A stretch of 64,000 nucleotides of DNA, taken from Thermodesulfobacteriota bacterium (GTDB taxonomy: Bacteria; Desulfobacterota; WTBG01; CAIYCZ01; CAIRTM01). Where the stretch lies: NCBI GenBank assembly GCA_028278025.1, contig JANQFE010000045.1:1-64000 (forward strand), read 5' to 3'. Under the pieces are notes generated by a model that ran no database searches, was not told where the DNA came from, and saw only the letters and a program-made list of their open reading frames with translations. Shown here piece by piece: positions 13,520-26,069 of the stretch (the first letter of the stretch is position 1; the number at the start of each line of letters is the position of its first letter). A program made the translations under genes and the position numbers.

Positions 13520-13581
13520 TTCTTTATATTATATAAAGAATTCCTTCAAAACCCCCTGATTCTTTATATGATATTAAGAAT
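13520..13581. promoter_or_regulatory. Twin palindromic operator candidates upstream of cas3
   Basis: TTCTTTATAT-T-ATATAAAGAA (13520-13540) is a perfect palindrome. ATTCTTTATAT-G-ATATTAAGAAT (13559-13581) is a near copy with one mismatched pair. Their centres are 40 bp apart, about four helical turns, ending 52 bp before the cas3 start. A dimeric repressor or activator controlling the cas operon is the natural reading. No regulator gene is next to it. Confidence 0.6.
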
Positions 13582-13633: not shown

Positions 13634-15349
13634 ATGGATTCAACCAGCGTAACAATCGGGCCTCGTTTTGTAAAACAAAATGCTGCAGGGTTACGGCCTT
13701 TTCAGTCCGAGACATTACGTGCAGTTAAGGATTGCTTGCATAAATTAATATTTGTAGAAGCTCCTGTCGGTGCCGGCAAGAGCTTCGTTTTTAAACTCAT
13801 CGCAGAGGAACCTGCCTTTCAGAACATTCCGGTTATTTTGACATATCCAACGAAAATATTGCTGGATACACAAGTAGAATCTCTAAAGAAACATTTTAAT
13901 AACAGCGCTGTCTGGCCTGACGATTCTGATATTTTCCCGATTGATTCTAAGAATGCAATAAATATTTTAAAGTATTCCACAGATTCGCTGGTCCAATATA
14001 TTAAGGAATCACCGGAGAGATTTGAAGCCTTCAAAAACAAGGGTGAGTTGCTACGGTCAGGACTTTTTGCATTAACATATGGAAAAAGACAACTTTTTGT
14101 TACGACACCCGATGTATTGTGGCTGATTTATTCGATGAAATATCGTGGAGCAAAAATATTACAGGCCCAGCTAAATTCCGCGCTGGTTTTTTTTGATGAG
14201 TTTCACACATATGCCAACCTGTATAATTTTTATGGTTTGCTTGATAATCTACTGTTTAAATCGAAGGTAAACAAGATTGTTTTGCTGTCTGCAACGCCGT
14301 ATTTGAAACAGGAAGCATGGTCTGAGTTTGAAAAAAAAGTCAATCAAAAACAAATTCCTGTTAGGCATGTGGATTTCGGTAAATCCGAAGCAGATAATGA
14401 TGGAGCCGTGTTTAATTTTCCTCTTCATCTTAATCTGCGAAATTTTAAATATACCGATCGTCATCTTTTACTGAAAAATATCTCTGAGATACTCGATTGT
14501 ATTCAAACGCCCGCAGCGATTATATTCGATTCCATTTTCAGGTTGAAGCACCTTAAAAAAGAGATTGAAAAAGCACATTCAGGTTTCGTTTTTCGCGAAT
14601 GGAGCGGCATGCAAAAGGATACCGACATCCCTGACCTTATTGAACGCCAAGCAAAAGTTATTGTCCTTGGCACATCAGCAATTGAAGTGGGTGTCAATAT
14701 GAAATTCCGTTCCCTGATTACTGAATCGTCGACATGGGCAAGTGCTATTCAGAGAATCGGACGTGTCGGAAGAATCCCTTATTTGCCGGACGGCGGCATT
14801 ATGGCAAACGCAGGCCATGTGTATCTTTTTATCAACTCACGGGATACAATGCTGAGCTTAAAAAACGCTCAAGAATTGTCAAGAAACGAATTTGAAAGCA
14901 TTCTGCAGGATACGCTGCGAGATAGTGTGGGCGGCATGTCCGGGGGTGAGCTGTTTCGCGGTGACAGCTATCAGTTCATAATTATCGACTCATATCTTGA
15001 GAGGCCCCTGATCTATTCACAGACGCTTTTTTCCATGTACGAGATAGACGAATCACGTATCATGGAATTTTATGGAACAGAATCGGAAAAAATAGATATT
15101 ATAAAAAGGACTGGTGTTACGGATAAAGGAGTGATTGAAGAAATTATTCTAAGGGACAGGCTGGTTCCGATCTGGGGAATTATTAAGTCGGATGGTCTGA
15201 GACAAACATATGACCGTATAACGGACACTCACAAGAGCGGCGACCCTGAAGAAGTGACCATTTTCACGGAATCAAACCCTGCAGGATTTCGATTTAGGCG
15301 CAGTGGTTTGAAATCTTCAAATACATATCCTGAGGACAGTTTATGGTGA
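13634..15349 (+). CDS. cas3: CRISPR-associated helicase Cas3' (type I-D)
   Basis: This 571-residue superfamily 2 DExH helicase unwinds target DNA in type I interference. Visible motifs are Walker A APVGAGKS near residue 42, DEFHTYA (motif II) near 187, LLSATP (motif III) near 216, GTSAIEVGVNM near 347 and QRIGRVGR (motif VI) near 373. There is no HD nuclease domain. That is normal for type I-D, where the HD domain is on Cas10d (here 17109-19796). No SD precedes the ATG, and the twin palindromes upstream suggest regulated transcription. It is the first gene of the cas locus. Confidence 0.85.
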   Translation: MDSTSVTIGPRFVKQNAAGLRPFQSETLRAVKDCLHKLIFVEAPVGAGKSFVFKLIAEEPAFQNIPVILTYPTKILLDTQVESLKKHFNNSAVWPDDSDIFPIDSKNAINILKYSTDSLVQYIKESPERFEAFKNKGELLRSGLFALTYGKRQLFVTTPDVLWLIYSMKYRGAKILQAQLNSALVFFDEFHTYANLYNFYGLLDNLLFKSKVNKIVLLSATPYLKQEAWSEFEKKVNQKQIPVRHVDFGKSEADNDGAVFNFPLHLNLRNFKYTDRHLLLKNISEILDCIQTPAAIIFDSIFRLKHLKKEIEKAHSGFVFREWSGMQKDTDIPDLIERQAKVIVLGTSAIEVGVNMKFRSLITESSTWASAIQRIGRVGRIPYLPDGGIMANAGHVYLFINSRDTMLSLKNAQELSRNEFESILQDTLRDSVGGMSGGELFRGDSYQFIIIDSYLERPLIYSQTLFSMYEIDESRIMEFYGTESEKIDIIKRTGVTDKGVIEEIILRDRLVPIWGIIKSDGLRQTYDRITDTHKSGDPEEVTIFTESNPAGFRFRRSGLKSSNTYPEDSLW

Positions 15350-15377
15350 TATTAAGTCTTGACTTAATAGAAAAAAT

Positions 15378-15409
15378 AAATAAACTTATTTATAAATAAA
15401 CTTATTTAT
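15378..15409. promoter_or_regulatory. Tandem 16-bp dyad repeats
   Basis: AAATAAACTTATTTAT occurs twice back to back (15378-15393, 15394-15409). Each copy contains inverted arms AAATAA/TTATTT. They fill the 73-bp gap between cas3 and the AAA ATPase gene, 14 bp before its ATG, and may be an operator or an RNA structure for a second transcript start. Confidence 0.5.
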
Positions 15410-15422
15410 TTTCTGTATTAAA

Positions 15423-17105
15423 ATGATTCCGACCAGTTATCCTGTCAGCGGCGATGATTTTATAAACAGGCGAGAAATCATGGAAAAACTCTTCCTGGCA
15501 TTCAATTCTCGCCAGAATGTTGCCCTTGTTGGTTTGCGAAGAACGGGGAAAACATCCATAGCTAAAGAGCTGTTGAGGGACCTTTGTGAACGGGAGAAGA
15601 AGAAAACGGTAAAACTGATATTCGATGTTCAGGAAAACGCCGGCGCGCCCGGCAGGTTTGCATACCGCCTGCTTATCTCGTTCCTGCGGGCTTTTAAAGA
15701 GGAAATGTTTCCCCGCCATGTCCTTGAAACACAGCCGGGCGATTTGCTTGAAATTGCCTCGCACATAGACAGCACAAGCCTTGATCAGCTCTCAAGATTT
15801 TTAACAGCCTATTTCCCGCCTTCAAATGCAGATAATGAGCGCACTGTTTTCGAGAGGATATGGCGCTTTCTGGATGAGTTCGCCGTCGAACAGGATATTC
15901 AGGTAGCCCTCGTCCTTGATGAGTTCCAGTCAATCAAAGCACTGCAAGCCTACAGGCAATGCAAGGATATTTTAGGATTACTCCAGGGTATTATATCTTC
16001 ATCTCAGCGACACATATGGTATTTGTTCACCGGTTCGATGGTCAGTATGATGGATGAAATCATCGAGGGATCAAAATCACCCTTTTACGGCAGAGTACAG
16101 CGTCTTGATGTGGGAAGTTTTACAAAGGAAGACACAATCATTCTGGCAGAAAAAACCTCTCAAAAACAGTTCAGTGGTGAAGCCATTGAGCTGCTTTGGT
16201 TGTTATCGGGGGGTATACCCTATTACATATTGGCAATTGTAAATGAGGCTGTTCATATCAGCCAGCGGGCAAGATTCATATCCAGATCAGACATTGAAAA
16301 CTCTTTTGTTAAGAGCCTTACAAGAGGTGAACTGGGGTCGCATTGTAATTATCTCTTAAACATCTCTCTGGAACGATCTAAAAAATCAGCTTTACTAAAA
16401 GAGGTTATAAAGCTGCTCGCATTCGAGCCCCTTCCTCCCGGCGAGCTGGCAAAAAAACTTCGAAAAGAAATCGGCTATACATCCCTTCCTCTGAGAAATT
16501 TACAGAATATGGACTTGGTCAGGAAAGAGGGAAAAACATATAAAATTGTCGATTCCATTCTTGCCATGTGGCTGAAATATGTTTACTCCTTTGAGGAGCC
16601 TTTCCTTGACAAAATACAAAAAGATGTCGACCGAAACTACAATGAATATATTGCGAAGCTGAAAAAAGAGCGCGGTTTCCTTTTTGAAAGTTATGTACGG
16701 GAGCTGCTGGGAAAGTTCGATGGAACCCGTTTGGAAAAAAAGGTTTTGCCACGATTTGCGTCAGTCGATTCAATCAATATTTTTGATGACGCGGGAATGG
16801 TTTTCGACAAGCCGAGCAATGTTGAAATCGACGCATTGTGCATTGGGTATGAAAACTGGCTATGCGAATTCAGGTTTCGGGGAAAAACTGTGGGCAGCAA
16901 GGATATAAAAATCCTTTCCCGAAAAAAAGAGCTTGTCGAAAAAAAATTAAATCTAAAAATACAAAAGCAGGTGTTTGTCTCCATGTCCGGATTCAGCCAT
17001 AGTGTTTTGAAACAGCGCACTGTGTGGTGTGTTGGTCAAGCTGCATTGAACACTCTTTTAAAGAACTTCAGTATGCGCCGGTTGGATCGGCAGGAAGAGG
17101 AATAA
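15423..17105 (+). CDS. AAA ATPase with PD-(D/E)XK-like C-terminus, cas-operon accessory
   Basis: This is a 560-residue protein of the archaeal-ATPase/DUF234 type. The N-terminal NTPase has NRREIMEKL, Walker A GLRRTGKTS near residue 37 and Walker B VALVLDEFQS near 162, then an LFTGS sensor-like segment. A winged-helix region lies around 330-370. The C-terminal part has VEIDALCIGYENWLCEFRFRG, resembling the D...ExK core of PD-(D/E)XK nucleases but with E-x-R. It sits between cas3 and cas10d, 3 bp before the latter. It is not a standard type I-D subunit, so it may be a recruited accessory ATPase/nuclease or a defence protein sharing the promoter. The start has no SD. Confidence 0.7.
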   Translation: MIPTSYPVSGDDFINRREIMEKLFLAFNSRQNVALVGLRRTGKTSIAKELLRDLCEREKKKTVKLIFDVQENAGAPGRFAYRLLISFLRAFKEEMFPRHVLETQPGDLLEIASHIDSTSLDQLSRFLTAYFPPSNADNERTVFERIWRFLDEFAVEQDIQVALVLDEFQSIKALQAYRQCKDILGLLQGIISSSQRHIWYLFTGSMVSMMDEIIEGSKSPFYGRVQRLDVGSFTKEDTIILAEKTSQKQFSGEAIELLWLLSGGIPYYILAIVNEAVHISQRARFISRSDIENSFVKSLTRGELGSHCNYLLNISLERSKKSALLKEVIKLLAFEPLPPGELAKKLRKEIGYTSLPLRNLQNMDLVRKEGKTYKIVDSILAMWLKYVYSFEEPFLDKIQKDVDRNYNEYIAKLKKERGFLFESYVRELLGKFDGTRLEKKVLPRFASVDSINIFDDAGMVFDKPSNVEIDALCIGYENWLCEFRFRGKTVGSKDIKILSRKKELVEKKLNLKIQKQVFVSMSGFSHSVLKQRTVWCVGQAALNTLLKNFSMRRLDRQEEE

Positions 17106-17108
17106 ACG

Positions 17109-19796
17109 ATGGATCAGCAGCAGGCCGTTCAGATACTCAAGCCTCTTATGTGGAAAGTCGGCAAATCAAACGGCGAGCAGCTCTGGATGCATCAGTTCAC
17201 GGTCTGGCATGTTTTCAGACAGATGTCGGATATCGGCGCTTTCCCGGCCCTGGAGAAGGAAAAGAGAGAGCTTCTGGAGCTGGCCTGTCTCCTGCATGAT
17301 GTAAAAAAAAGCACTCCCTGGAACCAGATGGTGATTTCCGGTGAAACCGATGCAGACACATTGCTCGGCACCTATCTCAGCTGGTGGCACGGCAAAGGCG
17401 TTTCGATTGATGCGCGCGAGAAGGTTGCTGTTAAAGCCCTGTTTTCACGCGGCCGGACAGACCATCAGATTGAGACAGAGCGCGACCTCGAATTTTTTTT
17501 AAAAGACTATTTAAACCGGGTTAAAGCCTCTATTCCATTTGAACTGAATGACGGCCGGATCAGAACGGTTTTTGATCTTATCAAACATCATTTTCTCAAA
17601 GAGGAAGATATATCCACCTCGGATGTGCCGGGATTCGGCAGCAACCTGTATACCCTGAAGCTCTGTGATCGTTTGGCCTCCATGGAGTCAATTGATCCGG
17701 CCGTGATACATGAGTTAAGAAACATAAATCGGCTTGGACGCAGGATTTTCGATGTTACGTATTTCACCATATCACGGCCGTTCGGGCCATTTACCGCTCT
17801 TGTATCTGATGTAGTGTTTGAAAGTTACCGGCAGTGCGGCTGGCAGCCCCTCCTTTACTTCGAAGGCGGTGGTGTCCTGGTGGGAAAGGGAGAAACAGAG
17901 CTGCCTGATAAAACAGCGATACTCAAAAAATTAAATGAACAGTTTCTTGAGAAGTCTTTAGATGCGGCACCCCTGCAGTTCGGCAGAAAGTCTGTGCTTG
18001 AGGGAATGGCCGGGGACTATGTGCATACATTTTTAAAAGTCAAAAAAGACGAGCTTCTCAGGAAATTTAATGAAGCAGATGGTGGTATCGCCTTTTTTAA
18101 ACTGCTCACCGAGATAGTGGACAGATGCGGATACAACACCAGAACAGAACGGGAGAAACGGCCCGCTCTCGATGTGCTGTTCGGCTTGACGGGAGGAACC
18201 CGAGGCATTCCTCTGGCAGGCCCAAAATGGGAGCACTATAGAAACGAACATCTGCCTTATAAAGCCGATGGGTCAGGTAAGGTCGATAAGCAAGGGGCTA
18301 TCTCACATGTTTTTAATTGTTTAAATATTCAAGAGGCGATCCCGGAAAAGTTGTTTGAAGAATTGAATATTGCTGACGCGCCACTCAAAGACTGCACCTC
18401 GCGGGTACTTTTTGATGTTTTAGCAGGGTTGGCCGTCCAATATGAACGAGAGGGTGAAGCTGCGTTGCAGACCTATTTTGATGAGATCATCTCAATAGAG
18501 GAAGAGAAAAATTTTAGAAGCATTACCTTAAATCGTTTTGAGCAGTATAAAGCCTACAAACGGAATCCGTCTGACACAACAACAGGGGTGTGTGAGATAT
18601 GTGGCTGCACCATAACACAGAAACCGGGCGCCGACTTTGCAAAAGGGCAAATCCAGGCGTTTACCCAGATCAAAGCAAGACCGGACGTGCCTCGAAAAAT
18701 TTGCCCCTTCTGTGCATATGACAACAGCATCATGCGGCAAGGAGTCGGGAAGTGGATACCTGTTTATGTGAAGGTGTATACAAAAGTCCCGATGATTTTC
18801 CGGGAAGAAATCACTGAAATAATCAAGGTTCTTAAAGACGGCATCATCCGGCTCCAGAATATTGAAAGCATGGAGAAGCGCTGGGGACTCTTATTTCCGT
18901 CCGTTGACATCCCTGTGGCTTCAAGCGATTACGATGTCCTGGAATATGTGGCAACATCGGACAGGGGTGAAATGATCCTTCGGCTTGAATCCGTAGACGC
19001 TAAGAAATACAGCCCGAAGGATATGCAGGCAAAATATGAACCACTGTATCACCTTCTCAATCTGCTCGGTTTTCGGGTCAGCATCGGCAGGGAAGAGCAG
19101 GTTGGCCTTTTTGGTGAAACGATACTCGGCACAGAGAGCGACTATTTAAAATCACTTGCCGTTGTTCTGTTAAGCTCTGCTGTTGATAAAATGCGGAAAT
19201 ATCTTTTTGCAAAAGATCTCATTGCCAAATCACCAAGCGTTGCGGTTGCCTATGCAGGGCAGGAGGAAAAAGATCGAAAGGGGAATAGCTATTTTAGGCT
19301 TTCGGATGAATCCGCCGAAAAATTTTTTGAATATATATATACGTCGAATATTAATTTATTTAGATTGAATGGGGGAGGTGGCTATCTTATGAAAAATTTA
19401 CTTGAAGATGCGGTCTTTTTTGCTGAGGGGATTCCGAAGTTTTGCTGGAGATTCGATGATGAGTGGAAAAAGTGGCATCAAAGCAGCTCCAAACACCTTA
19501 TTACCAAGCCCCTCAGCCGGGCACTGAATGAAATTTTACAGGGAAGAAGTTTTGATGAGGCCTTTGCAAAGTTTCTTGAACAGCTTAGGGAAAATATTGC
19601 TAAAGAGCAATCAGATGAAGCCAAAACAGATGTAACAGAGTTGAATGCCTTTGTTAAGGAAGCAAAATCAAAATTGGAAAAATATTATGAACTGAAACAG
19701 AAAAACATTACTGAATTCATAAGGGTGAAAAACGCTCTCCTTTCAACAGTATATGTTTTTAAACGATATGACAATTTAAAGGAGGTAATACAATGA
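17109..19796 (+). CDS. cas10d: Type I-D large subunit Cas10d (Csc3)
   Basis: This 895-residue large subunit of the type I-D Cascade carries the HD nuclease used with Cas3'. An HD motif is visible as LACLLHDVKKS (His63-Asp64), with an upstream His near 28. A four-Cys zinc ribbon (CEIC near residue 496, CPFC near 531) lies in the middle, and the C-terminus is helical. No GGDD palm motif is seen, which argues against type III Cas10 and for Cas10d. It begins 3 bp after the ATPase gene and ends in an ATGA overlap with csc2. Somewhat short compared with many Csc3 proteins of about 1000 residues. Confidence 0.85.
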   Translation: MDQQQAVQILKPLMWKVGKSNGEQLWMHQFTVWHVFRQMSDIGAFPALEKEKRELLELACLLHDVKKSTPWNQMVISGETDADTLLGTYLSWWHGKGVSIDAREKVAVKALFSRGRTDHQIETERDLEFFLKDYLNRVKASIPFELNDGRIRTVFDLIKHHFLKEEDISTSDVPGFGSNLYTLKLCDRLASMESIDPAVIHELRNINRLGRRIFDVTYFTISRPFGPFTALVSDVVFESYRQCGWQPLLYFEGGGVLVGKGETELPDKTAILKKLNEQFLEKSLDAAPLQFGRKSVLEGMAGDYVHTFLKVKKDELLRKFNEADGGIAFFKLLTEIVDRCGYNTRTEREKRPALDVLFGLTGGTRGIPLAGPKWEHYRNEHLPYKADGSGKVDKQGAISHVFNCLNIQEAIPEKLFEELNIADAPLKDCTSRVLFDVLAGLAVQYEREGEAALQTYFDEIISIEEEKNFRSITLNRFEQYKAYKRNPSDTTTGVCEICGCTITQKPGADFAKGQIQAFTQIKARPDVPRKICPFCAYDNSIMRQGVGKWIPVYVKVYTKVPMIFREEITEIIKVLKDGIIRLQNIESMEKRWGLLFPSVDIPVASSDYDVLEYVATSDRGEMILRLESVDAKKYSPKDMQAKYEPLYHLLNLLGFRVSIGREEQVGLFGETILGTESDYLKSLAVVLLSSAVDKMRKYLFAKDLIAKSPSVAVAYAGQEEKDRKGNSYFRLSDESAEKFFEYIYTSNINLFRLNGGGGYLMKNLLEDAVFFAEGIPKFCWRFDDEWKKWHQSSSKHLITKPLSRALNEILQGRSFDEAFAKFLEQLRENIAKEQSDEAKTDVTELNAFVKEAKSKLEKYYELKQKNITEFIRVKNALLSTVYVFKRYDNLKEVIQ

Positions 19797-20569
19797 CCCT
19801 TTTAACAGAGCCGACGATATTGTCCAGGGGTGTTTATCTTCAGCTTGTGGTGAACATAAAACTGCTCGATGATGCGATCATCAGAAGCAATGAGCCGGAA
19901 GAAGTTTTGACCTGTAGTTACTCGTCTCTGGGTAATCGCTTTATTATTCCCTGGCGCAAGGTGAAAGGCAAGCTCAGGCGGCTTGTCATGGAGAAACAGC
20001 GTGGCTTTGATATTATGCCGGCTTGTCATCTGAAGGATGATTTATGCATGGAATGTCCCTCTTGTTTTTTATTCGGCGGTACAGGTGAAACCTCCAGTAA
20101 AAAAGCATCATATAACATTCTTTCCCGGGTTCTCGGAGAAAGTTTTATTTCAAAAACCAAGGTCGGGGAAGTACAGCCATATACCGCTAATGCAGTTGAT
20201 GAGGTTGATCTAACAACGGGTCAGGCATTGATGACTATCGTGACCGTTCCCAAAGAAACGGAGTTTCTGGGGGTCGTCACGCTTCGCGACCCCACCGCAG
20301 CAATGGTTTCTATTGTTGCAGACAACCTGCAACGCCTGACAAGAATCGGGGCAAGCACGCGCGAGTGGGGCCGTGTAAAAACGGAGATACTGGGATACAA
20401 AATATCAGACCGTGAAGACCTGACCGCATATGATCTGGTAAACAACGACACTTTGCCGGATGGTCTCGACAAAATCTCCGAATCGAATTTGCCCGATGTT
20501 AAAGATTCTTATACAAGTCTTGATCTCGAAGTAAAGAGACTTTTGAATGAACACGGATTAATAAAATGA
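19793..20569 (+). CDS. csc2: Type I-D Cas7 backbone subunit Csc2
   Basis: This 258-residue Cas7-family protein forms the crRNA-binding backbone of the type I-D complex. The segment CHLKDDLCMECPSCFLFGG (Cys pairs) followed by GEVQPYTANAVDEVDL resembles the conserved Cys-containing insertion and thumb region of Csc2. Later VVTLRDPTAAMVSIVADNLQ and GRVKTEILGY fit the C-terminal RAMP part. GGAGG 7 bases upstream and the 4-bp overlap with cas10d fix the start. It is shorter than typical Csc2 (about 320 residues). Confidence 0.8.
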   Translation: MTLLTEPTILSRGVYLQLVVNIKLLDDAIIRSNEPEEVLTCSYSSLGNRFIIPWRKVKGKLRRLVMEKQRGFDIMPACHLKDDLCMECPSCFLFGGTGETSSKKASYNILSRVLGESFISKTKVGEVQPYTANAVDEVDLTTGQALMTIVTVPKETEFLGVVTLRDPTAAMVSIVADNLQRLTRIGASTREWGRVKTEILGYKISDREDLTAYDLVNNDTLPDGLDKISESNLPDVKDSYTSLDLEVKRLLNEHGLIK

Positions 20570-21270
20570 TTCTGTTTAAATATACAATCAGACTGCTTGA
20601 CCCGCTGTTTTATTCCCGTGAGGGGTTGGGCGCGGCTGTTACGCCGCGGTATATACACGCAACAGCCGTCAACCATGCGGTAGCCTATGCAACCGGGGCG
20701 GGCGAGAACCAGCCGTATATAATGTCTGAAGAGAACGGCGGCCGTAATGTTCCCCGTTATAAAAGCTCGCACATAGCCCTTGATTTCTACTTTACGCCTG
20801 CCCGCATGAAGGGCAACCCGCGATACATGCCGGAAATTGTGAAGGGAGAACTTGACGGCTTTGTCTGTAAAGGCTATCCGGGTGCCGAAGTCCTGCGGGC
20901 TTCGCAAATTTTCTCCCTTGCGCCGGATACGGAATTCGAGGGTTTTGGATATTGTAATGATATGTCTTCTGTTCCTGAGATAATCAGGCTCGGCAGTTTC
21001 AGAGGTAAGGCTCGTCTTGCAATTCACTCTGGAAGATTCCTTGGGAAGGCAGAAAACCAAATTGTAGACCACCCGACAGATCCGCTGGTGACCGATACCA
21101 CACGGGGCACTATGGTCACTATGTTTCCCTATCCCATAATAGAAAACCCGGTATGCAGAACATGCTGTAAAATAAAATTAAAAGGTGAGCGATTCCCCTT
21201 TACCATAGCCGTGCCGGTCACCTTTTCTTTTGATGAAACACCCATCAAGGGAGATACTGCTGTGTTTTAA
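20566..21270 (+). CDS. csc1: Type I-D Cas5 subunit Csc1
   Basis: This 234-residue RAMP protein caps the 5' handle of crRNA in the type I-D complex. The N-terminal YTIRLLDPLFYSREGLG and PRYIHATAVNHAVAYA match the Csc1 pattern, and a Gly-containing segment GSFRGKARLAI follows near 145. It overlaps csc2 by 4 bp (ATGA). Its order after csc2 is the standard type I-D arrangement. Confidence 0.8.
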   Translation: MILFKYTIRLLDPLFYSREGLGAAVTPRYIHATAVNHAVAYATGAGENQPYIMSEENGGRNVPRYKSSHIALDFYFTPARMKGNPRYMPEIVKGELDGFVCKGYPGAEVLRASQIFSLAPDTEFEGFGYCNDMSSVPEIIRLGSFRGKARLAIHSGRFLGKAENQIVDHPTDPLVTDTTRGTMVTMFPYPIIENPVCRTCCKIKLKGERFPFTIAVPVTFSFDETPIKGDTAVF

Positions 21271-21284
21271 TACGGAGTTATGCG

Positions 21285-21959
21285 GTGGATGCAACCATGC
21301 TGATAACAACATTCAAAACCGACCGGACGGTTACCCAGTCAGCGTCTTTTTTTCGGGGCTTTGTTGCCGGCCGATTTCCCGAATCCGTACTCCTGCACCA
21401 GCATGACGGACAAAATCTTATATATGCTCATCCCTTGGTTCAATACAAGCTGCTTGATGATTTGATGATTGTTGGAATGTGCGATGGTGCTGAAGCTTTA
21501 CATAATATTTATAACCGGATTGACAGGATTGTATTAGGTGGGGAAATGTATAATGTAACCGAGAAAAGCATGCACGAAAAAACAGTTGATTTTTCACACT
21601 CACCATCATTTGTTTCCTACACCTTCCTCACCCCCTGGCTGGCCCTCAATGAAAACAACTACAAAAAATACCAGCGGCTCGGCACGTGGCAGAAGCGAAA
21701 AGAGCTGTTGTCTAAAATCCTGATCGGCAACATACTGTCCATGTCAAAGAGCCTGGGCTATACCGTGCCGGCACCGATCGAGGTAGAGCTGGGGAAACTG
21801 CGCGAAGTTCCCACAAAGCTCAAAGGCACGCCCATGATTGGGTTCCTCGGAAGTTTTTCGGTGAACTTCGAGATACCCGATCTGTGGGGCATCGGCAAAT
21901 CGGTTTCGCGCGGGTTCGGGACTGTGAAAAGAATAAGGAAAGCAGAAAAGCAGGAGTAA
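21285..21959 (+). CDS. cas6: CRISPR pre-crRNA endoribonuclease Cas6
   Basis: This 224-residue Cas6 protein should cleave repeats to leave the 8-nt ATTGAAAC handle present in the array repeats. The C-terminal glycine-rich loop WGIGKSVSRGFGTV (about residues 202-215) is the family hallmark, and the fold is RAMP-like. A catalytic His cannot be assigned from sequence alone. The GTG at 21285 is preferred because GGAG lies 7 bases upstream. ATG at 21297 is an in-frame alternative without SD. Confidence 0.85.
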   Translation: MDATMLITTFKTDRTVTQSASFFRGFVAGRFPESVLLHQHDGQNLIYAHPLVQYKLLDDLMIVGMCDGAEALHNIYNRIDRIVLGGEMYNVTEKSMHEKTVDFSHSPSFVSYTFLTPWLALNENNYKKYQRLGTWQKRKELLSKILIGNILSMSKSLGYTVPAPIEVELGKLREVPTKLKGTPMIGFLGSFSVNFEIPDLWGIGKSVSRGFGTVKRIRKAEKQE

Positions 21960-21975: not shown

Positions 21976-22350
21976 ATGGGCTTGGCACACGAAGAGCTGA
22001 GCAGTGAAATAATCGGTGCTGCAATTGCCGTTCACAGGGAGTTGGGTCCTGGATTTCTGGAATCGATCTATGAAAATGCTATGGCGATCGAGTTGCAAAG
22101 AAAGGGGCTGTCCTTTACCAGGCAGAAGGAGGTGGTTATTTGCTATGATGGCTTTGACGTAGGCAGGCATCGGCTTGACCTTTTTGTTGAGAACACATTC
22201 GTGGTAGAACTCAAGGCCATTAAGAATCTGGAGGATATACATTTCGCAGTTGTGCGATCATATCTGAAAGCAATGGAAAGGGAGCACGGTCTTTTACTGA
22301 ATTTTGCAAAAGCGCCGCTCGAAATCAAAAGGGTCATTTTAACAATCTGA
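21976..22350 (+). CDS. GxxExxY-family protein
   Basis: This is a 124-residue protein with the signature GPGFLESIYENAMAIEL, then a C-terminal core RHRLDLFVENTFVVELKAI that matches the D...E-x-K pattern of PD-(D/E)XK nucleases. The family is widespread with no proven function. A strong SD (GGAGGGGGAG) precedes the ATG, 16 bp after cas6, so it is probably co-transcribed with the cas genes. Similar genes occur widely outside CRISPR loci, so it may simply be a passenger. Confidence 0.85.
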   Translation: MGLAHEELSSEIIGAAIAVHRELGPGFLESIYENAMAIELQRKGLSFTRQKEVVICYDGFDVGRHRLDLFVENTFVVELKAIKNLEDIHFAVVRSYLKAMEREHGLLLNFAKAPLEIKRVILTI

Positions 22351-23439: not shown

Positions 23440-24459
23440 ATGCAGCTTTTTATCAACACCCCCGGCACTATGGTCAGGCAGAAAGATGAATGTTTCTGCA
23501 TTATAAAGGATGACCGGAAGACTGAGATCACACCCCGCAAGGTGGAAAGCATCGTGTTTACCAACCAGGCATTTGTCTCCACGCAGGCGTTGGTGCTGGC
23601 ACTGGAACATAATATAGATGTCATCTTTCTTGACAGGTACGGTGATCCTGCAGGCCGTGTGTGGCATTCCAAGATGGGCAGCACCGCTCTTATCCGACGC
23701 AGGCAGCTCGAAGCGGCAGAAACAGAGACAGGATTTGATCTGGTTGCAGAAATGATTACCGCGAAACTCAACAACAAAATCAGATTTTTAAAAAAATTGA
23801 AAGCAGCAAGGCCCGGGTCAGACGACAGCTTCAATCAATATATAGAACGGATCGAGACCGCCTGCACATCCGTAAAAAATATGCAGGGAAGCCTTGAAGA
23901 AAAAAGGGGCTCTCTTATGGGGATCGAAGGGGCCGCCGGAAGGGCCTATTTTGAATGCCTGTCTTATATCATGCCTGAAAAATACCGGTTTTCAGGCAGA
24001 TCAAGGAGGCCGGCCCGCGATGAATTTAACGCCGTGCTTAACTATATGTACGGTATTCTTTATTCACATATAGAAAAGTCTTTGATTCTTTCCGGACTTG
24101 ATCCTTTTGTCGGGTTTCTGCACGTCGACAATTATAATAAAAAATCCCTGGTCTTTGATTTTATAGAACCGTTTCGTATTTCTGCTGAACAGTGCACTGT
24201 GTATCTTTTTACCGGCAAAAAAATCAAAGATGAATATTTTGACAGGGCTCAGGATGCCGTCAGCCTGAACCAGGATGGCAAACCTGTAGTCATAGAATCC
24301 ATTAACAATCATCTTGATGAAAGTATTCGCTATCGCCGCAGGAATGTGAAACGCAGGCATATCATGTTGCATGAAGCTCACAGAATAGCTAATATGCTGC
24401 TGGACGACACGGAAGAAAGAAAACGCCGACCGGCCTGGCTTGATATAAAGGAGCTGTGA
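23440..24459 (+). CDS. cas1: CRISPR integrase Cas1
   Basis: With Cas2 it inserts new spacers at the leader end of the array. The 339 residues have the Cas1 layout. An N-terminal beta-sandwich has FTNQAFVSTQALVLALEHNI and VIFLDRYGDPAGR. The helical catalytic domain has GIEGAAGRAYFECL (catalytic Glu), GFLHVDNYNKKSLVFDF (His) and FIEPFR (acidic ligand). The cas2 start overlaps its end by 4 bp. Confidence 0.95.
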   Translation: MQLFINTPGTMVRQKDECFCIIKDDRKTEITPRKVESIVFTNQAFVSTQALVLALEHNIDVIFLDRYGDPAGRVWHSKMGSTALIRRRQLEAAETETGFDLVAEMITAKLNNKIRFLKKLKAARPGSDDSFNQYIERIETACTSVKNMQGSLEEKRGSLMGIEGAAGRAYFECLSYIMPEKYRFSGRSRRPARDEFNAVLNYMYGILYSHIEKSLILSGLDPFVGFLHVDNYNKKSLVFDFIEPFRISAEQCTVYLFTGKKIKDEYFDRAQDAVSLNQDGKPVVIESINNHLDESIRYRRRNVKRRHIMLHEAHRIANMLLDDTEERKRRPAWLDIKEL

Positions 24460-24767
24460 TGACACGGGGAACCGATCTTCTTTTGTGGGTACTGTACGAT
24501 ATTGTTGAGGACAAGCCCAGAAACAAGGTAGCCGGTCTCTGCAAGAAGGCCGGTTTGACCAGGGTCCAAAAAAGTGCTTTTCTGGGCAGAATCGAACGCA
24601 ACCGTTACGATGAGCTGGCCGAGGCATGTCGTGATCTGATAAATGAAGAAACCGACAGTGTCTATCTTTTCCCTTTTTGTGAAGACGATTTTAAAAAGAT
24701 CAGGGTACATGGTCAGGGTTTTGACAAAAAACTGGTAAATGATGAAATCCTCCAGCAATTTTTTTAA
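24456..24767 (+). CDS. cas2: CRISPR adaptation protein Cas2
   Basis: A 103-residue ferredoxin-like Cas2. The first strand LLLWVLYDIVEDKPRNKVAG carries the Asp of the family, and the following helix/loop GLTRVQKSAFLGRI is typical. It forms the Cas1-Cas2 integrase complex. It overlaps cas1 by 4 bp and cas4 by 29 bp. Confidence 0.92.
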   Translation: MMTRGTDLLLWVLYDIVEDKPRNKVAGLCKKAGLTRVQKSAFLGRIERNRYDELAEACRDLINEETDSVYLFPFCEDDFKKIRVHGQGFDKKLVNDEILQQFF

Positions 24768-25371
24768 GAATGATTTTGAGACGTCACCGATCGAACTCAC
24801 CGCAACGGATTTGCTTGAGTATATCTTCTGTCCGCGCTTTACCTATTTTGAGCTGTATCTGAAAATTCCACAGCACGAGGAAAAACGCTACAAGGTTGAA
24901 AAAGGAAGGACGGTTCATGAACAAAAAAACAAAATCAACCCACAGTATCTGCGAAAAAAAATCGAGTGTACCGACCGGAAATTTTCTGTTTATATTGACG
25001 GGCTTGACGGCTGTAAGGGAATTGTTGATGAAGTTCTTACTCTGGCGGATGGCACGATGGCACCACTTGACTATAAATATGCCGAGTATAAGGAGACGAC
25101 ATTCAGGAATCATCGACTACAGCTTGTATATTATGCAAAGCTCATAAAGAGCCGCTATGGCAAACCTGTAAATCGTGGATTTATAATTTATACCCGCAGC
25201 AAAAACAAGATAGTCGAGGTGCCAATACATGAAAGGGACTTTAATAATCTTGAAAGTACAATTTCAGAAATGTTCAAAATTATAACAACAGGCAAATATC
25301 CTGAACCTACCGCATACAGAACCGCCTGCTTTGATTGTTGCTATAAAAATATTTGCGAAGGGCGAGTGTAG
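24739..25371 (+). CDS. cas4: CRISPR exonuclease Cas4
   Basis: This is a 210-residue RecB-like nuclease involved in prespacer trimming and PAM selection. Visible are LEYIFCPRF (first Fe-S Cys), RTVHEQ (His of the nuclease core), GIVDEV and APLDYKYAEYK (the D...ExK-like core), a QLVYYA motif and the C-terminal ACFDCCYKNIC Cys cluster. ATG at 24739 overlaps cas2. An alternative ATG at 24742 is adjacent. It is the last cas gene, 153 bp before the first repeat. The order cas1-cas2-cas4 differs from the common cas4-cas1-cas2. Confidence 0.9.
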   Translation: MMKSSSNFFKNDFETSPIELTATDLLEYIFCPRFTYFELYLKIPQHEEKRYKVEKGRTVHEQKNKINPQYLRKKIECTDRKFSVYIDGLDGCKGIVDEVLTLADGTMAPLDYKYAEYKETTFRNHRLQLVYYAKLIKSRYGKPVNRGFIIYTRSKNKIVEVPIHERDFNNLESTISEMFKIITTGKYPEPTAYRTACFDCCYKNICEGRV

Positions 25372-25524: not shown

Positions 25525-26069
25525 GTTGAAATGCTAAATCCATTAAAACAAGGATTGAAACTAAGGGCATTAAAGAAAGCCGGAAAGGTGGCGTCATGTT
25601 GAAATGCTAAATCCATTAAAACAAGGATTGAAACTTCAACTGACGTGGAGGGCAATGACAAAAGTCGAACGTTGAAATGCTAAATCCATTAAAACAAGGA
25701 TTGAAACCGAAGAACTTCGTGACCGCTGTGATTTTGAAATTGTGTTGAAATGCTAAATCCATTAAAACAAGGATTGAAACAACTCAGGCAATTCTGTTAA
25801 TAAAGGCAATTTACAGTTGAAATGCTAAATCCATTAAAACAAGGATTGAAACAATCTCTCTATTGCCTCTGTCCATAAAGACAACCAGTTGAAATGCTAA
25901 ATCCATTAAAACAAGGATTGAAACTCTCCGTATCTTTCTTCCAAGATAAACATTGTCTTTGTTGAAATGCTAAATCCATTAAAACAAGGATTGAAACAAA
26001 TGCTTCAGCCACTGCGCACTGGATCGATCACCGTTGAAATGCTAAATCCATTAAAATAAGGATTGAAAA
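25525..26069 (+). CRISPR. CRISPR array, 8 repeats of 37 bp, 7 spacers
   Basis: Repeats start at 25525, 25598, 25671, 25744, 25816, 25888, 25961 and 26033. Each begins GTTGAAATGC and ends GGATTGAAAC. Internal AATCC/GGATT can form a 5-bp stem, leaving the 8-nt ATTGAAAC handle typical of Cas6 processing. Spacers are 36, 36, 36, 35, 35, 36 and 35 bp. The first seven repeats are identical. The last carries C-to-T (AAAATAAGG) and a changed terminal base, the usual decay at the leader-distal end. Direction is plus, away from cas4. Confidence 0.98.

Follow-up and report, generated by a model that had tools for sequence, protein, structure and literature searches.

Why does a gene for a predicted ATPase-nuclease fusion lie inside a type I-D cas operon, between the helicase gene cas3' and cas10d? 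The question arose from a 64,000-nt stretch of DNA, referred to here as the window, in which the gene occupies a single open frame running from ATG to TAA and encoding 560 aa (P0001). The gene ends 3 bp (17106-17108) before the start of cas10d, and both this spacing and the position between a type I-D Cas3' upstream and a Cas10d downstream, as given in the initial annotation, proved correct. We do not regard the frame as a product of chance, because a 568-aa orthologue with 48% identity (P0003) holds the same place in another genome. The leader of the gene in the window is 73 bp long and contains all three of the palindromes listed in Table 1. A further AT-rich palindrome with 10-bp arms occurs upstream of cas3 (window 13520-13540), and a promoter scan came near to chance, with 29 promoters found against 24.4 expected.

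Table 1. Features of the type I-D locus and of the ATPase-nuclease fusion gene, with positions in the window.
Feature	Position	Strand	Basis or remark
cas3' (type I-D helicase, 571 aa, short C-terminus)	13634..15349	+	TIGR03158 96.6 bits, cut-off 69.1, E 1.5e-27
Three AT-rich palindromes, cas3-ATPase gene interval	15350-15369, 15376-15393, 15392-15409	.	possible operator
AAA ATPase - winged helix - PD-(D/E)XK-like fusion (P0001)	15423..17105	+	560 aa
AAA/P-loop domain (ATPase_2)	15459..16232	+	Walker A GLRRTGKTS, Walker B DEFQ
Winged-helix domain	16383..16553	+	placed via alignment to the L028 orthologue (P0003) and PDB winged-helix chains
Restriction-endonuclease-like tail (predicted)	16620..17102	+	E422, ExD (E468/D470), E482, R484 replacing K
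Shine-Dalgarno-like AGGAAGAGGAA of cas10d	17092..17102	+	sequence reading; within ATPase frame
cas10d (895 aa), HD motif kept	17109..19796	+	TIGR03174 32.8 bits, under cut-off 60; position before Csc2; alignments
cas7d/csc2	19793..20569	+	TIGR03157 86.5 bits, cut-off 38
cas5d/csc1	20566..21270	+	TIGR03159 34 bits, under cut-off
cas6b	21285..21959	+	PF17262 and PF17955
cas1 (b-type by best PADLOC match)	23440..24459	+	
cas2	24456..24767	+	
cas4 (b-type by best PADLOC match)	24739..25371	+	
CRISPR array, 8 repeats of 37 nt	25525..26069	+	Rfam CRISPR-DR7

The surrounding locus is of type I-D, as had been claimed from the sequence: Cas10d occurs together with Csc2 (Cas7d), Csc1 (Cas5d) and a separate Cas3', of which Cas3' and Csc2 score above their NCBIfam cut-offs, while Cas10d and Csc1 match under theirs. 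Since these proteins are accompanied by Cas6b and by b-type Cas1 and Cas4, the locus is best described as a divergent I-D effector combined with processing and adaptation genes of the b type. It resembles the canonical type I-D systems of cyanobacteria and haloarchaea in possessing cas3', cas10d, csc2 and csc1, but differs from them in its short Cas3' (571 aa), its 258-aa Csc2, its diverged Cas10d, its Cas6b, its b-type Cas1 and Cas4, and the added ATPase gene. Type I-D is rare in the phylum: of 395 genomes searched, 2 have Csc2, and one of these is the source of the window.

The identification of P0001 as an AAA ATPase stood, with a score against Pfam ATPase_2 of 46.1 bits (cut-off 33.2) and intact Walker A (GLRRTGKTS) and DEFQ motifs. 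The accompanying label of a DUF234-type protein did not, as Pfam DUF234 (PF03008) gave no match to P0001 at E 0.01 and none to its tail at E 1. A family alignment was prepared from 13 full-length proteins, namely P0001, P0003 and 11 other relatives; tail-less relatives of ~380 aa and cut-off frames were left out. DUF234 was matched by two of these 13 proteins. A profile of the 13 relatives matched the solved ATPases 2qen and 2fna as well as several winged-helix regulators, and P0003 matched winged-helix families, HTH_45 among them, at residues 325-381. The ATPase-plus-winged-helix stretch of the profile covers 2qen and 2fna nearly to their C-termini, so the winged helix is standard for the family.

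The tail required more caution. It aligns end to end with those of the relatives, four of the 13 aligned proteins match Mrr_cat, E482 is invariant across the alignment, and the aspartate at position 470 is kept in 11 of 13 rows. The PD-(D/E)XK-like tail that had been proposed is therefore supported as a predicted domain by alignment to the Mrr_cat-matching relatives, but its own best profile match (PDDEXK_10, E 0.047) is under the cut-off and the lysine of its ExK motif is replaced by arginine. At that position the alignment has K in eight proteins and R in five (P0001 at R484, P0003 and three of the 11 other relatives), and a tailed relative left out of the alignment, L126, has K. Because of the arginine, the tail of P0001 may not cut. 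At the level of sequence the tail does not lack a nuclease fold, but the AlphaFold models, with mean pLDDT values of 45.0 for full-length P0001 and 41.2 for the tail, are too poor to confirm it, and the assignment of the fold rests on sequence.

Ten of the 13 aligned proteins match the PADLOC family PDC-S27 at E 0.01 or better. P0001 itself matches this profile weakly (27.9 bits, E 2.5e-7, residues 136-389 of 560 against profile positions 82-328 of 474; E 1.2e-5 in a whole-genome search) and is for that reason called a relative rather than a member; a whole-genome search of the genome carrying P0003 yielded no PDC-S27 match at E 0.001. In a tree of the 13 proteins, P0001 and P0003 formed a clade with full support. 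In a 2026 study, PDC-S01 and PDC-S27 are given as ATPase domains fused to PD-(D/E)XK members, and PDC-S27 is described there as being without experimental validation (PMC12988326). P0001 shares with these PADLOC candidate single-gene defence families the order of an AAA ATPase with a PD-(D/E)XK-type domain behind it (PMC12988326), but differs in sitting within a cas operon, in its weak match and in the arginine at the ExK lysine. The best reading of these likenesses makes P0001 a candidate defence protein related to the PDC-S27/PDC-S01 kind.

A scan of genome contigs with Csc2 provided 200 confirmed I-D loci, of which the best 80 were compared with the window. The two closest were L028, from a Deltaproteobacteria MAG (Csc2 67% identical), and L029, from an Endomicrobia MAG (59%). 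In L028 the gene for P0003 lies between cas3 and cas10d, and its stop overlaps the cas10d start by 8 nt, so that the ATPase gene is closely coupled to cas10d in both genomes. Between the window and L028, the identities amount to 48% for the ATPase, 51% for cas10d, 53% for csc1, 48% for cas6b, 54% for cas4 and 67% for csc2, with the remaining half of the L028 cas3 being 46% identical to that of the window. Since the value for the ATPase resembles those for cas10d, csc1, cas6b and cas4, the gene has travelled with its locus. In L029, cas3 lies directly against cas10d and the ATPase gene is absent, with cas3, csc2, csc1 and cas4 all present. The Cas10d of L029 is split in two frames (L029:5278-7812), reflecting either a sequencing error or decay. 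The palindromes of the ATPase-gene leader in the window were not found in the cas3-ATPase gap of L028.

In alignment, the Cas10d of the window keeps H63-D64, K67 and the following HH, predicting an HD nuclease; L028 and L029, like the window, have an intact HD motif. This removes the need for the P0001 tail to act in place of a lost nuclease, and such a replacement was ruled out. Also ruled out was compensation by the ATPase for the short Cas3', which is equally short in the carrier-free L029. A search for a CreTA-like ectopic repeat gave a best match outside the array of 22/37, equal to that in shuffled sequence, and this idea too was rejected. In the Cas10d of both carriers, 124 residues separate the HD motif from the conserved motif that follows, against 84 in L029 and 94-114 in 58 other I-D Cas10d proteins, a comparison from which 14 Cas10d without the second motif as written and three without the first were left out. 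Relative to L029, the carriers have ~40 extra residues after the HD motif (window 17310-17465, and the cas10d of L028). This extended region could be a docking site.

The linkage of the ATPase gene to cas genes is real but narrow. Among the best 80 of the 200 I-D loci, L028 alone carries the gene, the window being the second carrier; beyond L028 and L029, phmmer with three queries and the family profile revealed no orthologue in the other 78 loci, the one weak match being that in L102 described below. Matches were present in 12 of 297 and 12 of 394 genomes of the phylum (overlapping samples, each count including a carrier). With the carriers left out, none of 14 ATPase places in the phylum shared a contig with cas1, which was found somewhere in 9 of the 14 genomes; cas1 was sought in 16 matching phylum genomes, the matching genome G718 not being among them. 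The Chloroflexota gave 12 ATPase places in 7 of 251 genomes, none of the 12 on a contig with cas1, which was found in four of the seven. Many of the contigs behind these counts are short, and cas1 marks a cas locus imperfectly, as the L028 contig is also without it. The proposed survey of neighbourhoods thus had a divided outcome: the sole close orthologue holds the same operon position, but distant homologues do not lie near cas1. No close relatives of P0001 were found in phages, and viral contigs gave no match with P0001, Cas10d, Csc2 or the ATPase alignments. A single plasmid-borne relative (23% identity; Fusobacterium) had no recognisable cas gene within the 17 kb examined. In a Scytonema I-D locus, an AAA-like ATPase with a weak match to the family profile (E 1.5e-6) directly follows cas6 (L102:12843-14231).

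The interval occupied by the ATPase gene is itself unusual. In 73 of the best 80 of 200 I-D loci, 76 of the 80 being cyanobacterial by record title, cas3 and cas10d could be placed on the same strand, and a gap of more than 150 bp separated them in 67 of these 73 scorable loci, L028 included (median 1465 bp). Gaps of this size in the best 80 loci occurred in 3/81 cases between csc2 and csc1, 24/80 between cas10d and csc2, 32/69 between csc1 and cas6, 16/61 between cas6 and cas4, and 14/59 between cas4 and cas1. Representative gap genes were identified as YhcG/PDC-S02, MNT-type nucleotidyltransferase, HepT-like HEPN, Uma2/PDC-S03 and DUF5615; two of ten slot proteins compared with Pfam were without a match. 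Labels were then assigned with phmmer using ten queries, consisting of seven Pfam-identified slot proteins, the neighbour of the Uma2 gene (without a Pfam check), P0001 and P0003. A labelled gene was present in the gap of 44 of the 73 scorable loci, the ATPase of L028 being counted, and the contents comprised MNT-type nucleotidyltransferases (30 loci), HepT-like HEPN proteins (24), YhcG/DUF1016 (20), DUF5615 (6) and Uma2 (3). Along the Csc2 tree, the presence of the five cargo kinds changes at least 17, 16, 7, 6 and 3 times, counts that lean high because unplaced loci were scored as gene-less and missed frames as losses. The interval resembles a general cargo slot of type I-D operons, of which the P0001 gene is a new occupant. 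In the literature searched, type I-D operons were nowhere said to contain such an ATPase, nor was the cas3-cas10d gap described as a cargo slot.

Three roles had been suggested for the protein. The best supported of them makes it a second defence system under cas control, given the overlap with PDC-S27 and the toxin-antitoxin and nuclease genes found in the slot, but a function in defence is itself put forward by inference. In the form that we prefer, and to which we give an even chance of being right, a PDC-S27-like defence gene was captured by a divergent type I-D lineage into the cas3-cas10d slot and would be co-expressed with Cas10d as a largely independent second layer. P0001 would be transcribed and translated together with cas10d, and would consequently be made whenever the CRISPR effector is made. 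Its AAA part may serve in ATP-dependent oligomerisation or sensing, its winged helix could contact DNA, and its tail, if active as a nuclease, would damage the DNA of the invader or of the host, presumably independently of Cascade. Against this reading, the orthologue has been retained through ~50% divergence, longer than expected of a mobile passenger, the match between P0001 and PDC-S27 is weak, the tail has R for K, and two carrier loci are known. Both other suggestions, of an effector that acts once the target is recognised and of a helper for Cas3', may yet hold in view of the tight coupling to cas10d in the two genomes. In a rival reading, the ATPase would be a dedicated accessory of this I-D variant, docking on Cas10d or Cascade after target recognition and remodelling or degrading DNA with Cas3'. 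Such a role would be consistent with the unchanged place of the gene and its tight coupling to cas10d in the two carriers, with the co-divergence of the ATPase and cas10d, and with the longer Cas10d HD region of the carriers. It is weakened by the sister locus L029, which lacks the ATPase although its cas3, csc2, csc1 and cas4 are in place, and by the absence of the gene from 79 (L029 included) of the best 80 of 200 loci; the two carriers are related and amount to one evolutionary event. The extended HD region is likewise a feature of one lineage, and its length varies in other lineages too, which is why we rate the independent layer as evenly balanced and the accessory as a doubtful, if serious, contender.

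The remaining alternatives appear less probable. P0001 could be a regulator that, through its winged helix, binds the palindromes ahead of its own gene and ahead of cas3 and controls the operon with ATP or some other ligand as the signal, a proposal in keeping with the winged-helix matches and with the three palindromes in the 73-bp leader and the one upstream of cas3. We consider it improbable, however, as the winged helix belongs to the standard equipment of the family, as seen in 2qen and 2fna, the L028 leader is without such palindromes, and a nuclease-like tail is unusual in a regulator. Similarly low is our estimate for a passenger without benefit to CRISPR, that is, a selfish or addiction-type gene in a tolerant gap. 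The slot does hold toxin-antitoxin genes in other loci and its occupancy changes often along the Csc2 tree, but the gene has been retained in the same place at 48% identity with its ATPase motifs intact, and no antitoxin-like partner adjoins it in either carrier. A role in transposition, as the TnsC/TnsA-like ATPase of a CRISPR-associated transposon of type I-D, was also considered: an AAA domain combined with a PD-(D/E)XK domain resembles TnsC plus TnsA in outline, and P0003 has a weak TniB match (E 0.0025). This identity is disfavoured and very improbable: Pfam scans of 20 window proteins from the locus and its surroundings found no transposase, TniQ, TnsB or other Tns/Tni gene, the ATPase_2 and PDC-S27 profiles match better, and Cas3', Cas1, Cas2, Cas4 and the array are intact.

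Two further systems are among the nearest to the one described here. A HEPN-MNT pair adjoining type I-D in Aphanizomenon was already known (Songailiene et al., 2020, as cited in PMC11676413). It likewise places defence-type genes beside type I-D, but it is a two-gene toxin-antitoxin of unrelated folds without an ATPase-nuclease fusion; other loci of our set hold HEPN- and MNT-like genes within the cas3-cas10d gap. The I-E3 variant likewise brings a PD-(D/E)xK-type domain into a type I system in which Cas3 may be retained, but there the nuclease is fused to Cas11, a Cascade subunit (PMC12669027); P0001 is a separate protein with an AAA domain. More speculatively, and with a probability that we place clearly on the low side, the cas3-cas10d junction may be a conserved cargo bay in which mutually unrelated back-up weapons, among them HEPN-MNT, the YhcG and Uma2 nucleases and the ATPase-winged helix-nuclease fusion, stand just ahead of cas10d. 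They would be made with it and would act once the Cas10d effector has been lost, blocked or overwhelmed, and the ATPase fusion would count as a new type of CRISPR-coupled guard. The ancillary effectors that depend on cyclic oligoadenylate in its type III relatives have been lost from type I-D (PMC10212523). If the slot generally houses back-up effectors, immunity would here be layered by gene coupling instead of by second messengers. The two clean carriers, the carrier-free sister and the list of loci provide the material with which to ask whether the gene is a guard or a passenger.

Several other genes and rearrangements were noted in and around these loci. Between cas6b and cas1, the window has a GxxExxY/PDDEXK_3 gene (21976-22350), and the corresponding interval of L028 has DUF6922 and AbiEii genes, so the passengers at that place differ between the carriers. 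Near the contig end, the cas3 of L028 is without its 5' half (L028:1-930), and the break carries a repeated end sequence as well as a transposase-like frame; an insertion element seems to have cut the gene, with the ATPase, cas10d, csc2 and csc1 frames still open. The array of L028 (L028:9983-10459) has at least 7 repeats, the 3' half of which is identical to that of the window repeat and the 5' half different. In Pseudanabaena galeata, cas10d and cas7d have between them a gene annotated as an HsdR N-terminal domain protein (L026:7081-7692).
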